Shown here one piece after another: positions 5,148 through 24,946 of a DNA stretch of 64,000 nucleotides; the first letter of the stretch is position 1; each line of letters begins with the position of its first letter. A program made the translations under genes and the position numbers. Source of the stretch: Oxynema aestuarii AP17 (GTDB lineage Bacteria > Cyanobacteriota > Cyanobacteriia > Cyanobacteriales > Laspinemataceae); the NCBI RefSeq assembly GCF_012295525.1, contig NZ_CP051167.1, positions 4,013,501 through 4,077,500 on the forward strand, given 5' to 3'. The notes under the pieces are model-generated. The model worked only from the letters and a program-made list of their open reading frames with translations. It was not told where the DNA came from and did not search any database.

Positions 5148-6507
5148 CGTAATTTTTACTGATTGATTGTTTCGACGATCGCAAATCACTGGAAGAGACT
5201 AATTTTTTCCTCGCCGCAAAAAAGTAAATCGGCAGTCCCAGGAAAATAGTAAACAGTCCGGCTAAAGACTCTACAGGTTTTCCCATCAACGTAAAGATGA
5301 GAACCCACAAGCCAACCCCGACAAAAATTAGTGGCGTAATCGGATATCCCCACGTTTGATAAGGACGGGAAATTTGCGGATACTTGTATCGGTGAACGAA
5401 CACCCCTGCAACAGTCATTAATGAAGACAGAGTTAGGGTAAATCCGAGATAAGTTACTAAAGCTTCAAAGGTTGAAGTAATCAGAAGCACCAAAATCAGT
5501 GAAAGTTGAATCCAGATAGCTAAATCAGGAATGCCACTGGCATTTTTCTTGGCGAGGGGTTGGAAGAAGGGAATATCTTCGCCAATCGCTTGCGTGACTC
5601 GCGGTCCGGCCCAAATCATCGAACTAATCGAAGAAATGAGACCGAAAGAAATGAGCAAACTCATTAATTTACCGCCAAAGTCGCCGAAAATATATTCGGC
5701 AGCGATCGCGCCGACTTGAGTTTTTCCAGCCAGCGCTTGTAAGGGGGTACTGTAGAGAAAAATAAAATTCAACAGCAAGTACAGCACCATGACGATCGCC
5801 GTTCCCACAATTAGAGAAAACGGTAAATTTTTCTCCGGCTTATCAATTTCATTGGCAATATAAACCGATGCATTCCATCCAGAATAAGCATAGGTGACAA
5901 ACACCAAAGAAACCGCAAACGGAGGGCTAAAAATCGGCTGAATGTCGCCAGCAGAAGGCAATAAATTCACGAACTGCGGTTCGGCGAGGAAAAAGCCACA
6001 GGCAATCAACACCACAATCGAAATCACTTTCAAGACCGTAAACCAATCTTGAAACGAGCTCCCCGTTTTCAAATTGCGGGTGTGAATTGTCGAAATGAGA
6101 ATGGCGACGATCGCCGCCACTAGGGTTTCGTTCGGAATCGGGAATACTTGTGAGAGATAGTCGGCGAGGGCGATCGCGGCGGCGGCGATCGGCGCTGCGA
6201 AGCCCACCGTTACTGAAATCCAGCCCGAGAGAAAGCCGATCGCGGGGTGATAGATCTGCGAAAGGAATGTATATTCACCTCCCGACCGGGGCATGACGGA
6301 GCCTAACTCTGCATAAGACAGGGCGCCGCACATGGCAAAAATCCCTCCGATCGCCCATAACGCCAATAAGGCGAAATAGGATTGAATGTCGGCCACTTGG
6401 TAACCCAAGCTGGTAAAAACCCCCGTTCCGATGGTATTGGCGACCACCAGACAAATCGCCGTGAACGGGCCGATGAGGCGAGAACTTCGATTGGAATCTG
6501 CCTTCAT
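5137..6507 (-). CDS. APC-family amino-acid permease
   Basis: A 456-residue integral inner-membrane protein with about 12 hydrophobic helices. The first helix contains NTIGTGVFTS, the unwound substrate-binding glycine motif of the amino acid-polyamine-organocation family, and SYAELGSVMPRSGGEY is the conserved stretch after helix 2. It should take up or exchange amino acids using an ion gradient; specificity cannot be read from sequence. It is the first gene of a two-gene unit with the overlapping lipoprotein gene. The upstream region (6508-6730) holds no further gene and probably carries the promoter. Confidence 0.92.
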   Translation of the reverse strand: MKADSNRSSRLIGPFTAICLVVANTIGTGVFTSLGYQVADIQSYFALLALWAIGGIFAMCGALSYAELGSVMPRSGGEYTFLSQIYHPAIGFLSGWISVTVGFAAPIAAAAIALADYLSQVFPIPNETLVAAIVAILISTIHTRNLKTGSSFQDWFTVLKVISIVVLIACGFFLAEPQFVNLLPSAGDIQPIFSPPFAVSLVFVTYAYSGWNASVYIANEIDKPEKNLPFSLIVGTAIVMVLYLLLNFIFLYSTPLQALAGKTQVGAIAAEYIFGDFGGKLMSLLISFGLISSISSMIWAGPRVTQAIGEDIPFFQPLAKKNASGIPDLAIWIQLSLILVLLITSTFEALVTYLGFTLTLSSLMTVAGVFVHRYKYPQISRPYQTWGYPITPLIFVGVGLWVLIFTLMGKPVESLAGLFTIFLGLPIYFFAARKKLVSSSDLRSSKQSISKNYDET

Positions 6508-6730: not shown

Positions 6731-7186
6731 TCATTCACGATGAATATATTGCATAATTTTGACCTCGATCGGGAGAAATCTTGAAGCGAATTGACCCAAT
6801 CCAAATTTAACTTTTAACGGTTTTGGTAACGATCGCCACCCTATTTCTACAAACCCCAAGCGAGCATAAAATGGGGCTAAATATCCCATACATTCCAGAT
6901 AAATCGGTTCGCTCGTTCCCTCGACTAAATGGCGAACCAAATAAGACCCCAAACCGCGATCGCGCCAGGACGGAACGACCACCAAACTCCCCAACTCCCG
7001 AACTCCGTCGATCGATCGCAACTGAGCACAAGCGATCGTCTTTCCCTCGAACTCGATCGCCCAAAATTGCCGCCAGTCCAACTGGGTCGGGTCCAACTTT
7101 TCCGAAAACACCAAACGCCGGATCGTCCAGATATCGGACTTTCGAGCGCGTCTGAGAGTGCATCCCGGGGGTAAAGCGTCAGTCAC
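6731..7186 (-). CDS. GNAT-family N-acetyltransferase
   Basis: A 151-residue protein with the GNAT fold signature: an N-terminal RRARKSDIWTIRRL segment, the acetyl-CoA pyrophosphate loop VVPSWRDRGLGSYLV (motif A, R/Q-x-x-G-x-G/A) and a C-terminal FYARLGFVEIG motif. The start is GTG at 7186, 9 bases beyond the stop of the upstream hydrolase, with GAGGGG six bases ahead of it, so the two genes probably form an operon. The acceptor substrate is unknown. Confidence 0.88.
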   Translation of the reverse strand: MTDALPPGCTLRRARKSDIWTIRRLVFSEKLDPTQLDWRQFWAIEFEGKTIACAQLRSIDGVRELGSLVVVPSWRDRGLGSYLVRHLVEGTSEPIYLECMGYLAPFYARLGFVEIGWRSLPKPLKVKFGLGQFASRFLPIEVKIMQYIHRE

Positions 7187-7195
7187 GATCGCCCC

Positions 7196-8230
7196 TCAAT
7201 TCCCTTGCCATCGGACGCGGACATTCGGATCCTCCCTCGGACCGCGATCGCCCAGGTAGGCGAGGGCCGCCCGGTCGTCGAGGGCGTAAGCGCGCAAAAA
7301 CACCGCAGTCCACCGGGCGATCGTCTCCAAGCTGACGGCGCGATCGAGAGTAGAACTGCTCTTTTCATTGGGCGATCCGGGGGGATTGTCGAGGTCGGTC
7401 AACCCGTAATGATTGGCGCCGCGTACTTCGATATACGCCTTGGGCGGACTCTCAATATTATTATATGTTTTTTCGATCGATTCGGCGCGAATTAAACTGT
7501 CCCGACTTCCGGCAATGAGGGCGATCGGAATTCCCGCATTGTTAACTTTCAAATATTCGCCATCTTCCCATAAATCGCTACCAAAAAACACCCCGGCGAG
7601 TAATTCTTTCGGTCTTTCATAAGGACCTTCACACCAGGGTAAATCGCACGCCTCGCGAATGGCATCTAACCCGATAAATCCCCCTTGAGAATGACCGATC
7701 AACACCAATTTTTCCGCATCGGTAATCTTAAATAACGGAGAATTGGCATGATGCTGTTGCGCTTTAACGTACCTCAAAACATCGGTCACCTGTCCCACTT
7801 GCGGGAACAATTCCTCGCGATCGCGGATGGTCGTCAGGTGGTTGGGAACCACCACGATAAAGCCGTAACGGGCGATCTGAGTGGCAAATTGCGAGTAATA
7901 AGCCGCATCCACATTAAACCCTTGAATCAGCAAAGCGACGGGTAAACGGTCTGCGGGTGCAAGTTGCGAGGGTTGAGGATAGTAGATATCTGCCGGATCG
8001 TTGTAGCCGGGAATCGTGGTTTTGAAGCGATCGACTTTGGCATACAACGGTTGGCTGGGGTCGCGGTCGGTCTGCATCGGTACCGGGGAAGGAGTCTCGA
8101 TCGCAACTGGAGCGATCGCGGGTTCCGAGGGCCGTTCCACGGGTTGGGAATTGGCCAAAAAATGGGGAACCAACGTCACCGAAACGGCGGCGAGGGCGGC
8201 GATCGCCCCGAGGGCGAAAAGTCTAGACAT
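7196..8230 (-). CDS. Exported alpha/beta hydrolase (chlorophyllase/cutinase-like)
   Basis: A short N-terminus is followed by a hydrophobic signal segment (ALGAIAALAAVSVTLVP), so the protein is exported or membrane-anchored. The core carries the nucleophile elbow GHSQGG and a late Asp and His (AGSRDS, GANHYGL) that would complete a Ser-Asp-His triad. The arrangement resembles the dienelactone-hydrolase/chlorophyllase-like esterase group; the substrate is unknown. GGAGG lies 10 bases before ATG 8230, so this start is preferred over a TTG two codons earlier. The GNAT gene follows after 9 bases. Confidence 0.85.
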   Translation of the reverse strand: MSRLFALGAIAALAAVSVTLVPHFLANSQPVERPSEPAIAPVAIETPSPVPMQTDRDPSQPLYAKVDRFKTTIPGYNDPADIYYPQPSQLAPADRLPVALLIQGFNVDAAYYSQFATQIARYGFIVVVPNHLTTIRDREELFPQVGQVTDVLRYVKAQQHHANSPLFKITDAEKLVLIGHSQGGFIGLDAIREACDLPWCEGPYERPKELLAGVFFGSDLWEDGEYLKVNNAGIPIALIAGSRDSLIRAESIEKTYNNIESPPKAYIEVRGANHYGLTDLDNPPGSPNEKSSSTLDRAVSLETIARWTAVFLRAYALDDRAALAYLGDRGPREDPNVRVRWQGN

Positions 8231-12692: not shown

Positions 12693-12955
12693 AACCCGGC
12701 GACTTCAAAATTGATAAAAAAGACCACCTACGTTATAGCATTCGAGCAAAGCCGTGTCAGGGGTTCGTAGCCCCTGCACTCGGGTGACTTCTTCGATCGC
12801 CTCACCGATCGGGCATCAGTAAGCCATACAATTTTTAAGCCATACAATTTTTATTGAGCAAAACATAAAACATAATAATTTTTTTGCTATTGATAGGTTG
12901 GTCAGTTAGATGTACTGAAACTCCAACTGACAATCGTAGAGAGTCCAGGATTGTG
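12693..12955 (+). promoter_or_regulatory. Probable CRISPR leader (AT-rich)
   Basis: This 263-base gene-free stretch directly abuts the first repeat. From about 12820 it becomes strongly AT-rich and contains a direct duplication of AGCCATACAATTTTTA followed by runs of A and T. It fits a leader if the array is transcribed on the plus strand, which I favour because the repeat then ends in TGAAAC after its stem, like other cyanobacterial repeats. The right flank (15983-16233) is the alternative leader if the orientation is reversed. No convincing -35/-10 pair was found. Confidence 0.5.
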
Positions 12956-15900
12956 CTTCAATGGGGCTGTCCCAAAAAGGGACAGTGAAACGGTTCATTA
13001 ATTCGGGGTCGAGTTCTATTAATAATTCCTTCAATGGGGCTGTCCCAAAAAGGGACAGTGAAACAATATATAAAACATAAAAAAGAAAGGGAATATATTG
13101 GCCTTCAATGGGGCTGTCCCAAAAAGGGACAGTGAAACCGATCGCGCGCCGACGGCGACAAAGAATAGGGCCCTTCAATGGGGCTGTCCCAAAAAGGGAC
13201 AGTGAAACACCCTTCAACCCTCCGGTAGCTCTGACGGTAGGGCTTCAATGGGGCTGTCCCAAAAAGGGACAGTGAAACGGGAATCCAATCCCGGCAGGCT
13301 CGGGGAGAGGCCTACGAGCTTCAATGGGGCTGTCCCAAAAAGGGACAGTGAAACTCATCTGGATACTCCGCACTGATTGGATCCCAAATGCTTCAATGGG
13401 GCTGTCCCAAAAAGGGACAGTGAAACGGATCCCGACGAGTATTTTCTCTCATTCCAGGGAGGCTTCAATGGGGCTGTCCCAAAAAGGGACAGTGAAACAG
13501 ATTCCGACCTGTCTGGCACCAACCTCTCTGGGCGCGCTTCAATGGGGCTGTCCCAAAAAGGGACAGTGAAACCTACCCATTCTCCAATACTAGGGGTTAC
13601 CGAGTAGCTTCAATGGGGCTGTCCCAAAAAGGGACAGTGAAACCCTGTGCCTTACTCGTACTACGTCCACTATGGCTAGCTTCAATGGGGCTGTCCCAAA
13701 AAGGGACAGTGAAACTGTCGAAAATCAACCTCTCTGGTCGCGACCTGAGCGCTTCAATGGGGCTGTCCCAAAAAGGGACAGTGAAACCTTAGGAATGGGC
13801 GCCATTTTTCGAGCTTGGCATTGCTTCAATGGGGCTGTCCCAAAAAGGGACAGTGAAACCCAAAAAAATCCGAATCGTCGGTCACCGAGTAAGGGCTTCA
13901 ATGGGGCTGTCCCAAAAAGGGACAGTGAAACGGAACGCGGTGTCCGGGACGGGAATCGCCGCACTGCTTCAATGGGGCTGTCCCAAAAAGGGACAGTGAA
14001 ACAGTCATCCTCGGAGCCACCTGTCTGGGCATCCTCGGGCTTCAATGGGGCTGTCCCAAAAAGGGACAGTGAAACATAATCGAAGCATACGAACAAAAAA
14101 AAAGGAAGTAGAGGCTTCAATGGGGCTGTCCCAAAAAGGGACAGTGAAACCTATCTATCCCCTCCACCTGGATGATCAAAATTGGACCGCTTCAATGGGG
14201 CTGTCCCAAAAAGGGACAGTGAAACCTGGGATCTGCGATCTCCAGTCCCAAAAAGTTCGCGCTTCAATGGGGCTGTCCCAAAAAGGGACAGTGAAACGCT
14301 CCCTACGCCCATTGATAATTAGATAGCACCCGCTTCAATGGGGCTGTCCCAAAAAGGGACAGTGAAACCCAGGGTGCGATCTATTCTCCCATGAGAATTT
14401 CGGCGCTTCAATGGGGCTGTCCCAAAAAGGGACAGTGAAACGGTGATGTTTGTCAAGCTTTCGTTCAAAAGTGAGAGCTTCAATGGGGCTGTCCCAAAAA
14501 GGGACAGTGAAACAGTCGCACTTTCTGCCCTAGCATTTCGGCTTTAGGCTTCAATGGGGCTGTCCCAAAAAGGGACAGTGAAACGTTCTGGCGTTTTCGT
14601 AAGATTTTAAAAAATTATCGGCTTCAATGGGGCTGTCCCAAAAAGGGACAGTGAAACTCGCTCCCGTTCCCGACATTAGCCAACTGCGGAGCTCGCTTCA
14701 ATGGGGCTGTCCCAAAAAGGGACAGTGAAACAGGGCTTGAGATGCCGCATTAGTAGTAGCAGCATAGCTTCAATGGGGCTGTCCCAAAAAGGGACAGTGA
14801 AACTTGATTAATTGATTAGACATAGTTGATTGTTCCTTTTGATGCTTCAATGGGGCTGTCCCAAAAAGGGACAGTGAAACGCACGAGGAGATTGACCCGG
14901 TAGGGGTGGAATCCGCTTCAATGGGGCTGTCCCAAAAAGGGACAGTGAAACGCAATAGGGGAGGATGTCAACGGCGGGAGAGTCCGAGCTTCAATGGGGC
15001 TGTCCCAAAAAGGGACAGTGAAACATGGTTCCTGATTGGTCGAGTCTTTCGCAATTCCCGTGCTTCAATGGGGCTGTCCCAAAAAGGGACAGTGAAACTC
15101 ATTTGCAACGTATCTTTAAAAGGTAAACACGAAGCCGCTTCAATGGGGCTGTCCCAAAAAGGGACAGTGAAACCACTCTCCGGAAGCGCTCGACGGATCC
15201 CCCGAACCGTGCTTCAATGGGGCTGTCCCAAAAAGGGACAGTGAAACCAGTAGAAGACTAAGCTGCTCGTATTTTGGGATGTGCTTCAATGGGGCTGTCC
15301 CAAAAAGGGACAGTGAAACCCATCGGCGGCAATGTTGCTCCGGGGTCATGGGGAGGCTTCAATGGGGCTGTCCCAAAAAGGGACAGTGAAACAGGACTCT
15401 CTCAGCCTCGGCCTTTGATGCAGCATAGCTTCAATGGGGCTGTCCCAAAAAGGGACAGTGAAACATCATTTTTCTCCTGGTTGGGCGATCGTTTTTCGCG
15501 ATGCTTCAATGGGGCTGTCCCAAAAAGGGACAGTGAAACATCGGATCTATCCACTCGATGGCCGCCGCTTGCCTCGCTTCAATGGGGCTGTCCCAAAAAG
15601 GGACAGTGAAACTGAAGGCGTCTGTAGTGGTTTAAGTATAATGGGAAAAGAGCTTCAATGGGGCTGTCCCAAAAAGGGACAGTGAAACTGTTGTATACTT
15701 TGGAACTTTTCCCAATGGTGGCTCGCTTCAATGGGGCTGTCCCAAAAAGGGACAGTGAAACTCGTCCAATCGACCTGAAACTCAACTCCTACCTAGGGCT
15801 TCAATGGGGCTGTCCCAAAAAGGGACAGTGAAACGCTTGGGACTTTCCGGCCTTCGGACGCGGTCTGGGTAGCTTCAATGGGGCTGTCCCAAAAAGGGAC

Positions 15901-15982
15901 AGTGAAACCTGGGGCAGCTTTTCGAGTCGAAGCTCGGAAAGTCAGGCTTCAATGGGGCTGTCCCAAAAAGGGACAGTGAAAC
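12956..15982 (+). CRISPR. CRISPR array, 42 repeats and 41 spacers
   Basis: The 36-base repeat begins CTTCAATGGGG, contains a 7-bp stem CTGTCCC/GGGACAG around AAAAA, and ends TGAAAC. I counted 42 copies, the first at 12956 and the last at 15947-15982, all identical by eye. The base before the repeat is G in all copies except the second to fourth (C), so the unit may be 37 bases. Spacers are about 34-41 bases and all different. Plus-strand transcription would give a crRNA 5' handle of AGTGAAAC if cleavage falls at the stem base. The array lies 251 bases from the stop codon of csb2, last gene of the cas operon. Confidence 0.98.
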
Positions 15983-16233: not shown

Positions 16234-17784
16234 TTAGAGATCGGGCACGAACAACCCCAGTCCGAAATGCGCGCCGTAGCCGATCGCGATCGGTCCGCAT
16301 TGTTCCTTCTCAAACTCTAACTCAATCCAATACCCTCGGTCTGAGGATTGATGACCTTTCCCCGAAGAGCGGCGGCGGCGGAAAGCGTGCCAGGGATAGG
16401 GACAATCGATATCGGAGTCGCTCAAAACACGAACGTCTGCCAGAGGGGCGATCGCCCATACCGATCGCAAATGGTCGATCAGGTGCTTCGCCTGCCACTG
16501 TACCCCATCGACCTGCCATCCGGTATCTGGATCGATTTTCTTCTTCGGATGACGCGGTAACACAAACGGCGTGAGCGATCGCCAAATGCGACTGCACCCG
16601 AGCAGGGAACGAGATTGTCTTATGGTTGTACTACGATAATCCTCCAGCGTTCCGAGTCCCGTCAACCGCGTTTGCACTTCAAACGCTTTACCTGCCCATA
16701 CTTTGGACAACCCACACAAGACCCGAACTGCATCCTCGCCGAACCCTTCCGCCGCAAACACCCAAAGGCGATCGATCCGTCCGTCGCCGTCGCTGTCTTC
16801 TGGTAAATACCAAGCGTGACGTTGATTCTGGCGCTTCTCACCCGTTTTCCGCCGACCTGAGAACGTTTCCATCGCTTGCGAACCGTCATCGCTGCGACTC
16901 ATTAACGTTTGTCGAAATCGTTCCCCGACGGCGAGGGCTTCGGTCAGAGGGGGCAACACATTTGAACTCAAATCAAATCGCGCCAGGGTCGGACGCGCGA
17001 TCGCCTGTCGCTCAGTAACCGACCATCCCCTAACATTGTTCGAGTTGTTCGCGATCGTATAAGTCGCCCATCGCGCACCGGGAACCCCACTCCACCCTTG
17101 ACGATGCAATTCGCCGATATCCACTTCTAAGGTATCGAGGAGATCCTGGGGAATCCGCCACTTGGCGCGTTTGGGTCGCTCGACGTTGCCTAAAGCCGTC
17201 TTAAATCCCTCAAACTCCGACTGAGAGAGGGGAACGAGAATGCGCGTCGTTTCGCCCGCCGCCACCTCATACGCCCCCAGGGGGCGGGCGTTGCACGCCG
17301 TCGCCGTGGTGTAGCACGGGGACACCTCACACCAGGACTCTGCACGACCGAGATAGGTCAACTGGTGACACAGACATTCGAGCAGTTGACGCTGCTTGTC
17401 GTCGAGTTCGACATCGTGCCACACCACTTGAATTTCCGGCGCTTTTTCAGGAATCGTCGTCGCGCGATCGAAGACGACGAACGTATCCAAGACCTTAGTC
17501 GTCGTCTCTTTCCCTTCTTTGCGAAGTGGCATATAGTGCCGAGTATGGGCCGTAGTATGAGGCGGCAACCGATACGACGGCAGGGAATCGGCGAGTTGGG
17601 TCACCAGTTGGCACAATCGATCGCGCGGCGGACGATCGCTCAGATAATAGTAAGCCGATACCAAAGCCCGCAAGATACGCCACGGCGACGGGGGATATTC
17701 GACAATGCCTTCGTTCACCTGATGATTCCACGGCGTGGCGTGAAAGCGCCCGGTGAGGAAGCGAATCGATAACGTCACACTCAT
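16234..17784 (-). CDS. csb2: CRISPR-associated protein Csb2 (Cas5-Cas6 fusion, subtype I-G)
   Basis: A 516-residue protein of the GSU0054/Csb2 family, which combines a Cas5-like N-terminal half with a Cas6-like C-terminal half and processes or holds the crRNA in the type I-G effector. The N-terminus (SIRFLTGRFHATPWNHQVNEG, then EYPPSPWRILRALVSAYY) is characteristic. The C-terminus ends in a glycine-rich Cas6-type loop, IGYGAHFGLGLFVP. AAGGGAAG precedes ATG 17784. It is the last gene of the minus-strand operon, 27 bases after csb1, and its stop faces the array. Confidence 0.88.
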   Translation of the reverse strand: MSVTLSIRFLTGRFHATPWNHQVNEGIVEYPPSPWRILRALVSAYYYLSDRPPRDRLCQLVTQLADSLPSYRLPPHTTAHTRHYMPLRKEGKETTTKVLDTFVVFDRATTIPEKAPEIQVVWHDVELDDKQRQLLECLCHQLTYLGRAESWCEVSPCYTTATACNARPLGAYEVAAGETTRILVPLSQSEFEGFKTALGNVERPKRAKWRIPQDLLDTLEVDIGELHRQGWSGVPGARWATYTIANNSNNVRGWSVTERQAIARPTLARFDLSSNVLPPLTEALAVGERFRQTLMSRSDDGSQAMETFSGRRKTGEKRQNQRHAWYLPEDSDGDGRIDRLWVFAAEGFGEDAVRVLCGLSKVWAGKAFEVQTRLTGLGTLEDYRSTTIRQSRSLLGCSRIWRSLTPFVLPRHPKKKIDPDTGWQVDGVQWQAKHLIDHLRSVWAIAPLADVRVLSDSDIDCPYPWHAFRRRRSSGKGHQSSDRGYWIELEFEKEQCGPIAIGYGAHFGLGLFVPDL

Positions 17785-17811
17785 CTATTTCTTCCCTTGC
17801 TTCGGTGTCTT

Positions 17812-21082
<3,271 letters not shown>

Positions 21083-21085
21083 CAA

Positions 21086-23569
21086 TTATTCCTCCGCCAA
21101 TGGTCCGGTGTATCGTGCCGATGCCCGCCAATCTGCCACGCGCACCACCGTTTCGAGATAGGCGAGTTTGAAGGCACCGTATTCGTCCAACAGGTCGAGC
21201 GATCGCGCCACCCACGATGGTTCGCCGTCGGAATTCTCCCCAAGTGCCACGCAATCGAGGGATAATTGGCACGACGGGATAGTGAGACCGTCGCCGAGGT
21301 CGATTTCGGGTAAGGTGTCCCCATCCCAAACCCCTCGCGCATAGGCTTTTCCATGCGGTGCAGCCTTCTCGTTCGGGTACGGCTGCACGACCATACGGAC
21401 TTTGCCGTGGTGACAGGCGACGAGATAAGCCAGTAGAAACGGTTCGCCCTGTTGCAGTGCCAGCAGCGCACTCGCCCATTCGTGACGCAAATAGCGAAAT
21501 CCACGATCTTGGAACTTACGAGGCGGGCGATCGCTGGAATTTTTGAAATCGCGATCGGATTTCGCCCACAATGTCGCTCCCTTGCGCTCTTCCCGGTTCC
21601 AGGTGAGCATCTTTTGAAATTCCTCGTGCGCTTTCCCCGCATCGTGATATCGGGCGGCGCGTGCGATCGACTCTACCGGGAGATCGCTGAGTTTGAGCGC
21701 CTCACACAATTTCTGAGCCTCATTAAATGTATCCCGAGCGTGTTGTTCGAGGGTGATGTAGGTTCCGACTTGAGAAAGTGGATCGTCGCGATCGCTATTG
21801 AAGTCTCCGTCTTCGGGTAGGTCGAGGGGTGCAAAGTCTTTCTCTTTGCCACCTGTAAAGCCCAATTCCGACGAATAGCCGCCGTCGGTCGTCCGAACCA
21901 ACAGAGTGATGCCAGGAAACAGCTCGTTGTGGGCGACCTTGCGCCATTGCTTGTTCGGCGCATCGAAGGTCCAAGCCTCTCGTTGTTTCAGAAACTGTTG
22001 AGCTTGAGCCATGCTGACCCGACAGAGTTCGTCTCGATACAATTTGCCGACGTAATTTTCATCTCCCCAGTCCGCAGAGGGATTGCCTTTTCCCCAATCG
22101 CGCCAGGCAATCTCTACATTGTTATCTTGGGCTTCCCGCACGAATGGCGAGATATCGATATCGTGACCCGCGAGGTCGCTGGCGGTATCGAATAATTGCA
22201 TGAGGTCGTGACGACGCAAAACCATTCCCTCAAGCGCCTGGGGCGATCGCTTGTCGTCGGGTAAGTTTTCCAGAAACGTTTGCAGCGACTCAATCCCGGC
22301 GTTGCCCTGTTGTTCTTGAAGTTGCCCGACGAGGTAGCGGGCCTGTTCGATCGCCTCCGCACGATATGGACTGGTCGCCTTATCGTCAACTTTCTTGTCG
22401 AAGTCGATCCAATACACCGCCGCCTCAGTCGCTTCACCGTATCGATTGCAGCGTCCGAGGCGCTGTACGAAAGACGACCAGGGACACAGTTCGGTAAATA
22501 AGGTGGTCGCAGAGATATCGACCCCAGCTTCGACCACCTGGGTAGCAACGAGAATGCCGCGAAAGGGATGCTCGTCGTCGAGATAGCGTGCGCCGAGGGT
22601 CTGGCGATCGCCTGCTCGAAATCGCGAGTGAATCAGTCCGATTTCTGCGTCGATCTCACCTTTACGCTGAAGTTGCTGGAGTTCGCGATACACCGCCCGC
22701 GCGCGATCGACGCGATTGCAAACGATTAGTGTCAACGTGTCGGCGCGATGTACTTCGGCGATCGTACTGGTGAGTTTACGGGCATACTGGCGAACCTCTT
22801 TATCTCCCCCCTTACTCGGAACCACGATCGCCGTACGCTGGATTGATTTGCTCGCACTCAGGCGCTTTTGCAAGGTGGGATGTTCTCGGTCATCTTCTCC
22901 CAGGGTGAAGGGTCGATCGAGATTGCCGTAGGTCTGACGATAATCGACCGTTTTCAAGATGTCGCTATCGAGAGTCGCAGACATCCACAAGGTGCGAGCA
23001 GTGCCATAGGTGCTGAAATGTTCTCGCAACCACTGCAGTTGTGCGGTCGTCCGCAATCCCGCGCCCATCAACTGCGTTTCGTCGATGACCCAGAAACAAT
23101 CATTATTCAGTTGTGCGAAATGCACTGGCCACCGATAGCGACTCATGGCATAACCCCGATTGAGCGCCCGAGAGAGCAGTTGGTCTTGGGTTCCGACTAA
23201 GATGGTATTGCGATCGAGGCGATCGTCCCAATCGTGACTGACGGAACCGCCCATCAGTTTGTGAACTTCAATGTCTTTAATGTCTTCGTCAAGGGCGTTG
23301 CGACCCTTGAGATGGTCGAGCCACTTGTGAATCGATCGCTCGGTCTGCTCGACCAAACTGCGCATCGGTAAGCAGTAGACCAATCGGCGTGGGGTGCGAT
23401 CGCGATCGTGTTGCCGTCGCCACAGCCATCCGAGAACGACTGTTGCTGTTTTACCACTCCCAGTGGGTACATTGAGAACAAGCGGGAGCTTATCGGCGCA
23501 GGCTAGCCGTTCTTGGTACGGAAACGGTGGTTTTCCAGTCGCAATTTGGAAAAACTCAGAAAATTTCAT
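21086..23569 (-). CDS. cas3: CRISPR-associated helicase-nuclease Cas3 with C-terminal HD domain
   Basis: An 827-residue Cas3 that unwinds and degrades target DNA. Helicase motifs are intact: Walker A PTGSGKT (35-41), DETQ (163-166), SAT (197-199) and motif VI QRLGRCNR. The HD nuclease lies at the C-terminus rather than the N-terminus, with HD at 642-643, His 696 in RHEWAS, HH at 720-721 and Asp 813 in RVADW, so all metal ligands are present. A C-terminal HD is the arrangement of the subtype I-G/I-U (GSU0051) group. It is the first recognised cas gene of the operon; no ribosome site is obvious before ATG 23569. Confidence 0.93.
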   Translation of the reverse strand: MKFSEFFQIATGKPPFPYQERLACADKLPLVLNVPTGSGKTATVVLGWLWRRQHDRDRTPRRLVYCLPMRSLVEQTERSIHKWLDHLKGRNALDEDIKDIEVHKLMGGSVSHDWDDRLDRNTILVGTQDQLLSRALNRGYAMSRYRWPVHFAQLNNDCFWVIDETQLMGAGLRTTAQLQWLREHFSTYGTARTLWMSATLDSDILKTVDYRQTYGNLDRPFTLGEDDREHPTLQKRLSASKSIQRTAIVVPSKGGDKEVRQYARKLTSTIAEVHRADTLTLIVCNRVDRARAVYRELQQLQRKGEIDAEIGLIHSRFRAGDRQTLGARYLDDEHPFRGILVATQVVEAGVDISATTLFTELCPWSSFVQRLGRCNRYGEATEAAVYWIDFDKKVDDKATSPYRAEAIEQARYLVGQLQEQQGNAGIESLQTFLENLPDDKRSPQALEGMVLRRHDLMQLFDTASDLAGHDIDISPFVREAQDNNVEIAWRDWGKGNPSADWGDENYVGKLYRDELCRVSMAQAQQFLKQREAWTFDAPNKQWRKVAHNELFPGITLLVRTTDGGYSSELGFTGGKEKDFAPLDLPEDGDFNSDRDDPLSQVGTYITLEQHARDTFNEAQKLCEALKLSDLPVESIARAARYHDAGKAHEEFQKMLTWNREERKGATLWAKSDRDFKNSSDRPPRKFQDRGFRYLRHEWASALLALQQGEPFLLAYLVACHHGKVRMVVQPYPNEKAAPHGKAYARGVWDGDTLPEIDLGDGLTIPSCQLSLDCVALGENSDGEPSWVARSLDLLDEYGAFKLAYLETVVRVADWRASARYTGPLAEE

Positions 23570-23597
23570 TGTCTAAAGTTCAAAAGTTTCTTGAACG

Positions 23598-23627
23598 AGA
23601 AAACTCCTGCCCAAACGAGCAGGAGTT
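23598..23627 (-). terminator. Terminator-like hairpin upstream of cas3 (possible attenuator)
   Basis: On the minus strand AACTCCTGC, an 8-base loop and GCAGGAGTT are followed by TTCTC, forming a 9-bp GC-containing stem with a short T tract. It lies between the small ORF ending at 23638 and ATG 23569 of cas3. Just downstream, AGAAACTT can pair imperfectly with the GAGTTTTCT that forms the right arm and T tract, so a competing structure is possible. Whether it ends the upstream transcript or attenuates cas3 is inference. Confidence 0.55.
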
Positions 23628-23637
23628 GATATTTCAG

Positions 23638-23886
23638 CTAAATCTCTTCAATTTCCATGCCCAGATCGGTAAGAATATTGCGCCATACAGCGTAAAACAA
23701 GACCGGATCGCTGCGATCGCTTACCCACTGCACCATTTCGTTAACACTCATGTCGTTTAAGGATGGGGCAGGTTGTTCAAGGCGAACACAAGCTTGTTCG
23801 ATCTCGTCCGATAAAGGATCGCGACGGACCCTGAGGAACCCCCAGGGATATTGCCACGGGGAGGATTGATCTTTTCGTTGTATCAT
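23638..23886 (-). CDS. Small protein of unknown function upstream of cas3
   Basis: An 82-residue protein from ATG 23886 (an in-frame TTG four codons earlier is the alternative). It is rich in acidic and aromatic residues, has an N-terminal PWQYPWGFLRVRRDP stretch and a C-terminal DLGMEIEEI, and has no signal peptide or membrane helix. AAAGG lies just 3 bases before the ATG, which is closer than usual. It is on the same strand as the cas operon, 68 bases ahead of cas3, with a terminator-like hairpin between. No family was recognised; it could be a Cas accessory or regulator, or unrelated to CRISPR. Confidence 0.6.
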   Translation of the reverse strand: MIQRKDQSSPWQYPWGFLRVRRDPLSDEIEQACVRLEQPAPSLNDMSVNEMVQWVSDRSDPVLFYAVWRNILTDLGMEIEEI

Positions 23887-24490
23887 GATCCTTTGCAATA
23901 TTTAATCTATTTCGCCTGCTCGATCCGCTTAGGAAACGGATTGGTGTGGGCGCTTTTTGTTTGCGCCTCCATGAGCTGGCTTACCTCTTAGGATATCATT
24001 ATTATTCCGAAAAGGGCAGAGACGTAAAAAAACAAACAACCACGAAACGAGCTACCAATGGAGCCACCCCGATAAGGGGTGGAACGGAAAATGCTCACTA
24101 TGTGAGTCAATTCCGAAAAGTGCAGAGCTTCAAAGAAGCCTTCAGGTTCAATGAAGGAAAGGAAAAATTGCTCTGCTCCATCTATCATAGTAGGTAACGA
24201 TGCAAGCATTCTGCGTAAATCTTTGAAAATCGTCACAAAAATTTCCATAGACTTCTTCAGAATCGTTACACCTCCCTCCCCAACGTGGCTGCCATCGGGT
24301 TCCCCCAAAGCTCTCGACAGTCTATAGTGCCTAGTAGGGGTTTGGTAACCAAACCCCTACTAAATTTTTTTATATTTTCTTTATTAACAGTCTGTAAGCC
24401 TTGTACTAACTGACCAATGGAGGCATCCCGATAGGGGGTGGAGCAAGACAACAACTACGCAAGCAATAGGTTCCATCTAAAATCTAAAAT
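23887..24490. repeat. Gene-free repeat nest next to the CRISPR locus
   Basis: These 600 bases hold no convincing gene. They contain: a direct repeat ATTCCGAAAAG(G/T)GCAGAG at 24004-24021 and 24110-24127; two related hairpin units starting ACCAATGGAG at 24054 (stem CCACCCC/GGGGTGG, loop GATAA) and 24413 (CATCCC/GGGGTG); and the 31-base inverted repeat at 24332-24362. Short ORFs across it read through these repeats. The pattern looks like a landing site for small non-autonomous elements. Confidence 0.65.
24332..24362. repeat. Inverted repeat, copy 1 of a two-copy family
   Basis: Arms TAGTAGGGGTTTGGT and ACCAAACCCCTACTA are perfect complements around a single A. A second copy with one mismatch is at 45643-45671, and flanking A/T tracts are also similar when copy 1 is read on the minus strand (GAAAATAT-AAAAAA before the arm). 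This suggests one dispersed element of about 45 bases rather than two chance palindromes. Confidence 0.8.
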
Positions 24491-24946
24491 CTAATCTGCT
24501 TCTCGTTCTAAAATTAAGGTGACCGGACCGTCATTATCGATCGCCACGTGCATCATCGCCCCAAATTCGCCCGTTTCTACCTTCAAACCACTTTGGCGTA
24601 ATTTCCCGACAAACTGTTCGTAAAGCTGTTGCGCGCGATCGCCGGATGCGGAGCGATCGAATGACGGTCGGCGTCCCTTCCGACAGTCTCCATATAAAGT
24701 AAATTGACTGACGACTAATAACTCCCCTCGAATGTCGAGAACTGACTTATCCCAACGGGCGCGATCGCTCGTTTCATCGGGAAATAGTCGTAATTCCAAA
24801 CATTTTCGCGCCATCCAATCCAGTTCGGCTTCCGTATCCGTTTCGGCAATTCCCACCAATAAATTTAAGCCTTTCCCGATTTGTCCGATCGCGCGATCGC
24901 CGACCATCACTTGAGACGATTTAACTCGTTGAATAATTACTCGCAT
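24491..24946 (-). CDS. dtd: D-aminoacyl-tRNA deacylase
   Basis: A 151-residue enzyme that hydrolyses D-amino acids (and glycine on tRNA-Ala) from mischarged tRNA, a cytoplasmic proofreading step. It starts [15 protein letters not shown], and carries the two cross-subunit motifs of the DTD fold, SQFTLYGD and NDGPVTL; the Gly-cisPro-type element is GPVT. Length is normal. The frame extends 12 codons upstream of ATG 24946, but that part lies in a hairpin region and has no family similarity. The COG0523 gene lies upstream on the same strand, 152 bases away. Confidence 0.95.

Follow-up and report, generated by a model that had tools for sequence, protein, structure and literature searches.

A degenerate two-repeat mini-CRISPR lies in front of the type I-G cas3 gene in the window (the whole stretch of 64,000 nucleotides analyzed here), and it quite probably provides a guide with which the I-G effector would repress a promoter located before a small gene, ORF82. 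The repeats, their register, a unique seed match and the recurrence of the arrangement in other I-G loci were all observed directly. It had been proposed that the stretch before cas3 (23570-23886) is regulatory, and this proposal is now backed by a predicted pair of guide and target, both of which are located outside that stretch.

The window contains a type I-G operon on the minus strand in the order cas3-csx17-csb1-csb2, and all four genes scored above their NCBIfam cut-offs. The cas3 gene (21086-23569, ATG at 23569) matched TIGR02621 with 787 bits (cut-off 400, E = 3.7e-236). The effector genes csx17 (18752-21085), csb1 (17812 to about 18762) and csb2 (16234-17784), which together span 16234-21085, were identified by TIGR04113, TIGR02570 and TIGR02165, respectively. 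A CRISPR array with 42 repeats of 37 nt and spacers of 33-40 nt was found at 12955-15982; judged by the handle, it is also transcribed from the minus strand. Near one end of this array (13028-13208), three repeats have C instead of G as the first plus-strand base, and variant repeats at one end are the usual sign of the old end of an array. Five cas1 matches could be detected in the genome, every one of them outside the window.

The mini-CRISPR (24052-24163) is on the cas strand and starts 166 bp upstream of the ORF82 ATG. We used a covariance model based on 15 I-G repeats aligned in crRNA sense, that is, those of the window and of 14 other loci, which have TTGAAG in common within their last eight bases; the L017 repeat (ending in TTGAAAC), the incomplete L020 repeat and second copies were left out. 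The model (R1) was run unfiltered over 16000-64000, and its E-values are rough and modest. The two best matches in these 48 kb were adjacent, 44 nt apart on one strand, and the third had an E-value of 1.2. The best was psiR2 (24052-24088; 17.9 bits, E = 0.0096), matched over 24056-24082 (model positions 7-33) with its ends extrapolated, and the second best was psiR1 (24127-24163; 17.4 bits, E = 0.013). Between them is a pseudo-spacer, psiS (24089-24126), which is 38 nt long by model position and starts exactly at the handle border. In psiR1, the first repeat to be transcribed, a hairpin is followed by four bases and the 8-nt handle TTTGAAGC (24127-24134), which is also present in the true I-G repeats of L014 and L016. 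The hairpin and CTCCATTG are retained in psiR2, which then departs (GTAG) and has a worn handle (ATTGGTAG). According to passages on a characterized I-G system, its Csb2 cuts four bases past the base of the hairpin, giving a handle of 8 nt (PMC9638904), and the layout of hairpin, four bases and handle position in psiR1 and psiR2 is as Csb2 cleavage requires. The unit has the composition by which CreA and CreR guides are recognized, namely two I-G-type repeat-like elements around a spacer-length stretch outside the array.

Other repeated sequences are present nearby. A third repeat-like stretch at 24409-24446 shares 90% identity with the psiR2 stretch over 30 nt; it was not reached by the covariance model at E ≤ 1 and may be what is left of a second unit. 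A search for copies of the psiR2-like stretch returned only two sites, both in the window. A dispersed palindromic repeat of MITE- or REP-like type (TAGTAGGGGTTTGGT/ACCAAACCCCTACTA) occupies 24283-24393 and accounted for nearly all of the 69 match rows in the genome to which the window belongs, where 40 of 252 candidates were scored.

Positions 1-17 of psiS match a protospacer-like target at 24004-24020 on the minus strand, 106 bp from psiS and starting 118 bp upstream of the ORF82 ATG. Sixteen of the 17 positions agree, the mismatch being at position 6, a position that type I effectors disregard. It is the sole such match in 64 kb, the next best site having four mismatches; once position 6 is left free, psiS and the target are the only two places in the 6.36-Mb genome with the exact 17-mer. 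Any 16/17 pair was observed in 1 of 200 shuffles of 23570-24500. The CreTA seed is described in passages of an earlier study as positions 1-5 and 7-11, with changes at position 6 having no effect (PMC8501985). The seed of psiS, defined in this way, is complementary to the nearby site, which is itself a weakly predicted promoter. This putative promoter (24001-24028, minus strand) consists of TTTACG (24023-24028), 16 nt and AATAAT (24001-24006), and overlaps the target; one sigma-70-like site was found in 23400-24600 compared with 1.8 expected in shuffles, which is not significant by itself. The PAM-position flank 5' of the target (24021-24023, minus strand) is GTC and differs from the I-G PAM given as TTN in published passages (PMC9638904). 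TTN was observed in six of the eight seed-matched loci described below, all of which share T at position -2, and a GTN-like PAM would be predicted for some cyanobacterial I-G systems. PAM analysis based on array spacers yielded matches in 9 phage records, at chance level only. The first reading frame past the target is a 21-codon mini-ORF (23907-23972, minus strand) preceded by an SD-like AGAGG; it belongs to no family and is a candidate creT-like element.

On this basis, we infer that the mini-CRISPR at 24052-24163 would be transcribed into a crRNA-like guide, whose precursor would be cut four bases 3' of each hairpin by Csb2, the Cas5-Cas6 fusion of the I-G system. Loaded with this guide, the effector (Csx17, Csb1 and Csb2) would recognize the 17-bp seed match at 24004-24020 and bind there, a match that should be insufficient for DNA destruction and sufficient for a promoter block. 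The repressed transcript would comprise the mini-ORF and ORF82 and end at least partly at a hairpin (23602-23627), and read-through past this hairpin could add to the supply of cas3. If the effector were absent, inhibited or busy, the promoter would open.

We examined up to 1.5 kb before 78 I-G cas3 starts for NTTGAAGN handles on both strands (85 handles), the locus set being the best 80 of 131 I-G loci. Nine loci (L067, L073, L086, L089, L112, L116, L120, L129 and L135) were left out, their cas3 start being missing, located at the edge of a contig or not transferred to the scan, and L060 (the L014 sequence) and L063 (the L012 sequence) were excluded from both upstream and control scans. Under a seed rule that allowed one wobble and left positions 6, 12 and 18 free, a target was found in 13 of the 78 upstream regions, reaching position 16 or beyond in 8, compared with 10 and 1, respectively, of 291 control regions (far upstream, cas3 and csx17; Fisher P = 2.2e-5 for 8/78 versus 1/291). 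Random positions in the same upstream regions, a cruder null, gave seed targets in 265 of 6000 cases and targets reaching at least position 16 in 35 of 6000. Because the seed rule itself frees positions 6, 12 and 18, a rescan was carried out by plain identity (14/17). It returned 11 loci, including eight with T at -2: the window (GTC), L012 (GTC), L088 (TTC), L096 (TTC), L097 (TTT), L100 (TTT), L104 (TTC) and L113 (TTG). Of the 13 mismatches in these eight loci, six were at position 6, four at position 12 and three at position 17. The matches of L072, L091 and L123 lacked T at -2 and had mismatches elsewhere. Seven matches came from 6 of the control regions. T at -2 was absent from all of them; six had mismatches elsewhere, and that of L110 had its sole mismatch at position 12. 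Since the window was already known when the handle scan was devised, it was set aside for inference. The combination of handle, seed match, T at -2 and mismatches only at 6, 12 or 17 was thus observed in 7 of 77 other I-G regions versus 0 of 291 controls.

These seven regions belong to four phyla. L012, the same sequence as L063, is from Spirulina sp. CS-785/01; L088 and L100 (Dehalococcoidia), L097 (Caldilineaceae) and L113 (Chloroflexi) are from Chloroflexota MAGs, L096 is from a Puniceicoccaceae MAG (Verrucomicrobiota) and L104 from a Pirellulaceae MAG (Planctomycetota). A hairpin-bearing psiR2 comes next in all eight loci; its handle is worn in seven, and L096 retains ATTGAAGA.

The guide module is not universal among I-G loci. 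In four further I-G loci of cyanobacteria (L058, L059, L060 and L077), no comparable unit was detected in front of cas3, where the best model match had 11.1 bits; an equal-sized stretch of the window gave 17.9 and 17.4 bits. Some further loci were kept apart from the eight. L015 has a creA-like unit with the PAM GTT, whose seed needs one wobble (at position 9), and L016 has a creA-like unit without a target. In L134, a repeat-like unit (6864-6911) shows a 16/18 seed match at 7699 with mismatches at 6 and 12; it was rejected as a ninth locus, its repeat match having an E-value of 0.17 in a search of 79 sources and the unit lying among other frames, 4.6 kb downstream of where cas3 starts. L018 (10274-10458) has three diverged repeats of I-G type, separated by two spacers, about 450-630 bp upstream of cas3 and on the opposite strand; given this orientation and only imperfect matches, L018 was also rejected. 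A scan with relaxed handles (589 handles) returned 28 loci with a seed target, 11 of them reaching at least position 16; it had no control and was not used as evidence.

What lies between the guided site and cas3 differed from locus to locus. The order in the window is target, 21-codon ORF, ORF82, hairpin and cas3. A 57-aa ORF and a hairpin are present in L015, a 65-aa ORF in L100, and a 6-codon ORF in L012 followed by a stretch that looks terminator-like by eye and was not reported by the scan. ORFs of 78 and 77 aa end 7 and 13 nt before cas3 in L088 and L113, respectively. In L096 and L097, no ORF was reported within the 142 and 127 bp that separate the target from cas3. The small proteins of L088, L100 and L113 matched no Pfam family at E ≤ 1. 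In L104, a 172-aa protein behind the target (5170-5688) matched sigma-70 region 4 (E = 4.6e-8), which suggests that a sigma factor encoded ahead of I-G cas3 might be under guide control. As judged from these predicted features, the guided site is the constant element among such I-G loci and the gene behind it varies.

ORF82 itself (82 codons; ATG at 23886, TAG at 23638; 23638-23886 on the minus strand), a candidate product of the repressed transcript, had originally been described as an 82-residue ORF on the cas strand that ends 68 bases before the cas3 ATG, and we found it exactly there (intervening bases 23570-23637). An SD-like AAAGGA precedes its ATG, and its length by itself is unremarkable against chance. 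Among 101 shadow ORFs, three reached its codon score of 0.125 per codon and 13 reached its score for synonymous codons alone; of 194 real-gene windows, 15% had a lower codon score. These statistics weakly favor coding, and ORF82 is likely to be a real, coding gene. A single-sequence AlphaFold2 model, made without a control fold, contained three helices (pLDDT 72, pTM 0.57), and Foldseek comparison with the PDB gave 25 matches, none at E ≤ 0.001.

No family had been recognized for this protein, and our searches agreed, finding none in Pfam, NCBIfam, PHROGs or PADLOC at E ≤ 1. No match was found in plasmids or phages, and none of the peptide-pattern matches in viral contigs (4) or genome contigs (76) could be confirmed. 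Among 59 genomes of relatives, ORF82 was detected only in its own, and among 388 genomes of the order only two matched at E ≤ 0.001, its own and one with a 27% match containing two stops. Across the phylum, 66 of 386 genomes including its own gave matches at E ≤ 1 (best other E = 0.0054). Those inspected resembled chance and were rejected as homologs; they included what we take to be a coiled-coil-like stretch, a helix-turn-helix-like protein and a HAD-like N-terminus, among others. The expectation that homologs would occur beside other I-G cas3 genes was not borne out: among the best 80 of 131 loci, the top match covered 21 residues with an E-value of 0.035, and nine further I-G loci gave nothing better than E = 0.61. 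With no homologs next to cas genes in either set, the suggestion that ORF82 is an extra component of the cas system also finds no support. ORF82 is an orphan and probably a real gene. We also considered a single family of small proteins ahead of cas3. The 57-aa ORF of L015 and a 76-aa ORF of L077, which end about 70-76 nt before I-G cas3, could be aligned (34%) and are possibly members of one fast-changing family, yet neither resembles ORF82 and the idea was rejected. A search of 194 genomes with the L077 ORF gave a single weak match (E = 0.005), and no creA was detected in L077.

A terminator-like hairpin followed by TTCTC had been noted between ORF82 and cas3, and it is indeed present at 23602-23627 on the minus strand (AACTCCTGC/GCAGGAGTT, 11 pairs in the scan), in a region (23400-24600) with 6 predicted terminator sites versus 1.6 expected. 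It begins 10 nt past the ORF82 stop codon, 32 nt separate it from cas3, and it is best read as the terminator of ORF82 itself. The original prediction went further and proposed a terminator/antiterminator switch in which AGAAACTT pairs with the right arm of the hairpin. Such pairing is possible, but at only -1.3 versus -17.5 kcal/mol it is about 16 kcal/mol weaker than the hairpin, and AGAAACTT lies 3' of the terminator. As AGAAACTT is transcribed after the hairpin, the polymerase would already be past the stop point and the hairpin would not be prevented in time; in a transcription attenuator, the antiterminator is made before the terminator and competes with it. Another partner, upstream of the hairpin, might be CGAGCAGG (23915-23922, within the mini-ORF), an exact 8-base complement of CCTGCTCG in the left side and loop of the hairpin (-14.9 kcal/mol), but this duplex would span about 290 nt, is weaker than the hairpin even before the loop cost and is of a sort expected occasionally by chance, which probably explains it. 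Thus, although the hairpin itself exists, an attenuator between ORF82 and cas3 is extremely improbable. The inverted repeat GTTCAAGAAACTTTTGAAC (23578-23596, minus strand; -4.5 kcal/mol), of which AGAAACTT is the middle, lies directly ahead of the cas3 ATG and may act as an operator or form a hairpin in the RNA.

A different question is whether the mini-CRISPR has any function. It might be the decayed end of an old array, with the 17-bp match a functionless old duplication, and the degenerate repeats and the third repeat-like stretch at 24409-24446 are compatible with such a relic. On the other hand, the same register, PAM and mismatch pattern were observed in seven other I-G loci and in none of the control regions, and the psiR1 handle has been retained while the remainder drifted. 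We therefore regard a relic as unlikely, and repression by the guided effector remains the preferred explanation.

Within this explanation, the purpose of repression may be read in two ways, which we rate about equal. The guide may silence something harmful, either the mini-ORF RNA or the ORF82 protein, and the cell would then be harmed once the effector is lost or inhibited, as in CreTA or CrePA; if true, the unit would serve addiction or abortive infection. This possibility, for which we would give somewhat less than an even chance, is consistent with the terminator between the repressed unit and cas3 in both the window and L015, with the SD-preceded mini-ORF past the target, as in passages describing the Acinetobacter I-F CreTA (PMC10097628), and with the absence of relatives of ORF82, CreT toxins being described in parts of another source as highly diverse (PMC9458426). 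It is weakened by the fact that ORF82 falls in no known toxin family (Pfam, NCBIfam, PHROGs, PADLOC) and is not of the KilA-N type described for CreP in the passages of PMC12737573. Alternatively, the promoter, which is on the same strand as the cas operon and upstream of it, may feed the operon through or past the intervening terminator-like hairpin, so that the effector limits its own supply in a CreR-like manner (cas autorepression) and ORF82 is a leader gene. The short distances from target to cas3 in L096 and L097 (142 and 127 bp, no ORF reported between), the small ORFs abutting cas3 in L088 and L113 and the 32 nt between hairpin and cas3, which leave little space for a separate promoter, argue for such autoregulation, whereas the hairpin of -17.5 kcal/mol that separates the target promoter from cas3 in the window argues against it; it, too, is tenable without being the probable answer. 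More generally, and just as tentatively, we suggest that in I-G systems of several phyla a guide-controlled promoter before cas3 drives fast-changing small genes (82, 78, 77 or 65 codons, or the 172-aa sigma-factor-like protein), and that ORF82 is an effector-gated toxin or regulator. If this were true, a block of the I-G effector, such as one imposed by anti-CRISPRs, would release these proteins.

If guide-directed repression is correct, type I-G, which PMC9638904 describes as the least well understood of the type I families, would join the CRISPR systems that use degenerate guides to regulate promoters, and orphan small genes before cas3 would be tied to a concrete control; eight loci with exact seeds are now on hand for testing. 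In the parts of the literature available, CreA or CreR guides are reported for I-B, I-E, I-F and V-A: CreR is named for I-B, I-E and V-A (PMC13131331), and CreTA (CRISPR-regulated toxin-antitoxin RNAs) for I-B (PMC9458426) and for I-F, after previous discoveries in the vicinity of cas6 in type I or III systems (PMC10097628). When full texts were searched for CreTA together with 'type I-G', the phrase turned up only within a reference title, and the original CreTA paper (Science 2021) may list I-G; titles, abstracts and passages on CreR, CrePA and cas-regulating RNAs contained no I-G case, and the primary CreR paper may list one.

Compared with these systems as their published passages describe them, the window shows both similarities and differences. 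CrePA, a guide RNA with a protein toxin, CreP (PMC12737573), likewise combines a crRNA-like guide with a protein, a candidate one in the window, encoded behind the guide's target, but CreP is typically a KilA-N protein, whereas ORF82 has neither KilA-N nor any other family in Pfam or NCBIfam. CreR resembles the window in its mini-CRISPR guide with a limited match to a promoter (a predicted one here) upstream of cas genes; the window unit differs in being of type I-G and in having an orphan gene and a terminator between target and cas3. It differs from CreTA in its I-G type, its position before cas3 and the 82-codon ORF present besides the mini-ORF. CreTA of haloarchaeal I-B and Acinetobacter I-F systems nevertheless has the same degenerate psiR1-psiS-psiR2 unit adjoining a cas gene, the same seed of positions 1-5 and 7-11 matching a nearby promoter (predicted in the window), a kept psiR1 handle with a worn psiR2 handle, both described for haloarchaeal CreA (PMC9458426), and an SD-preceded mini-ORF past the target.
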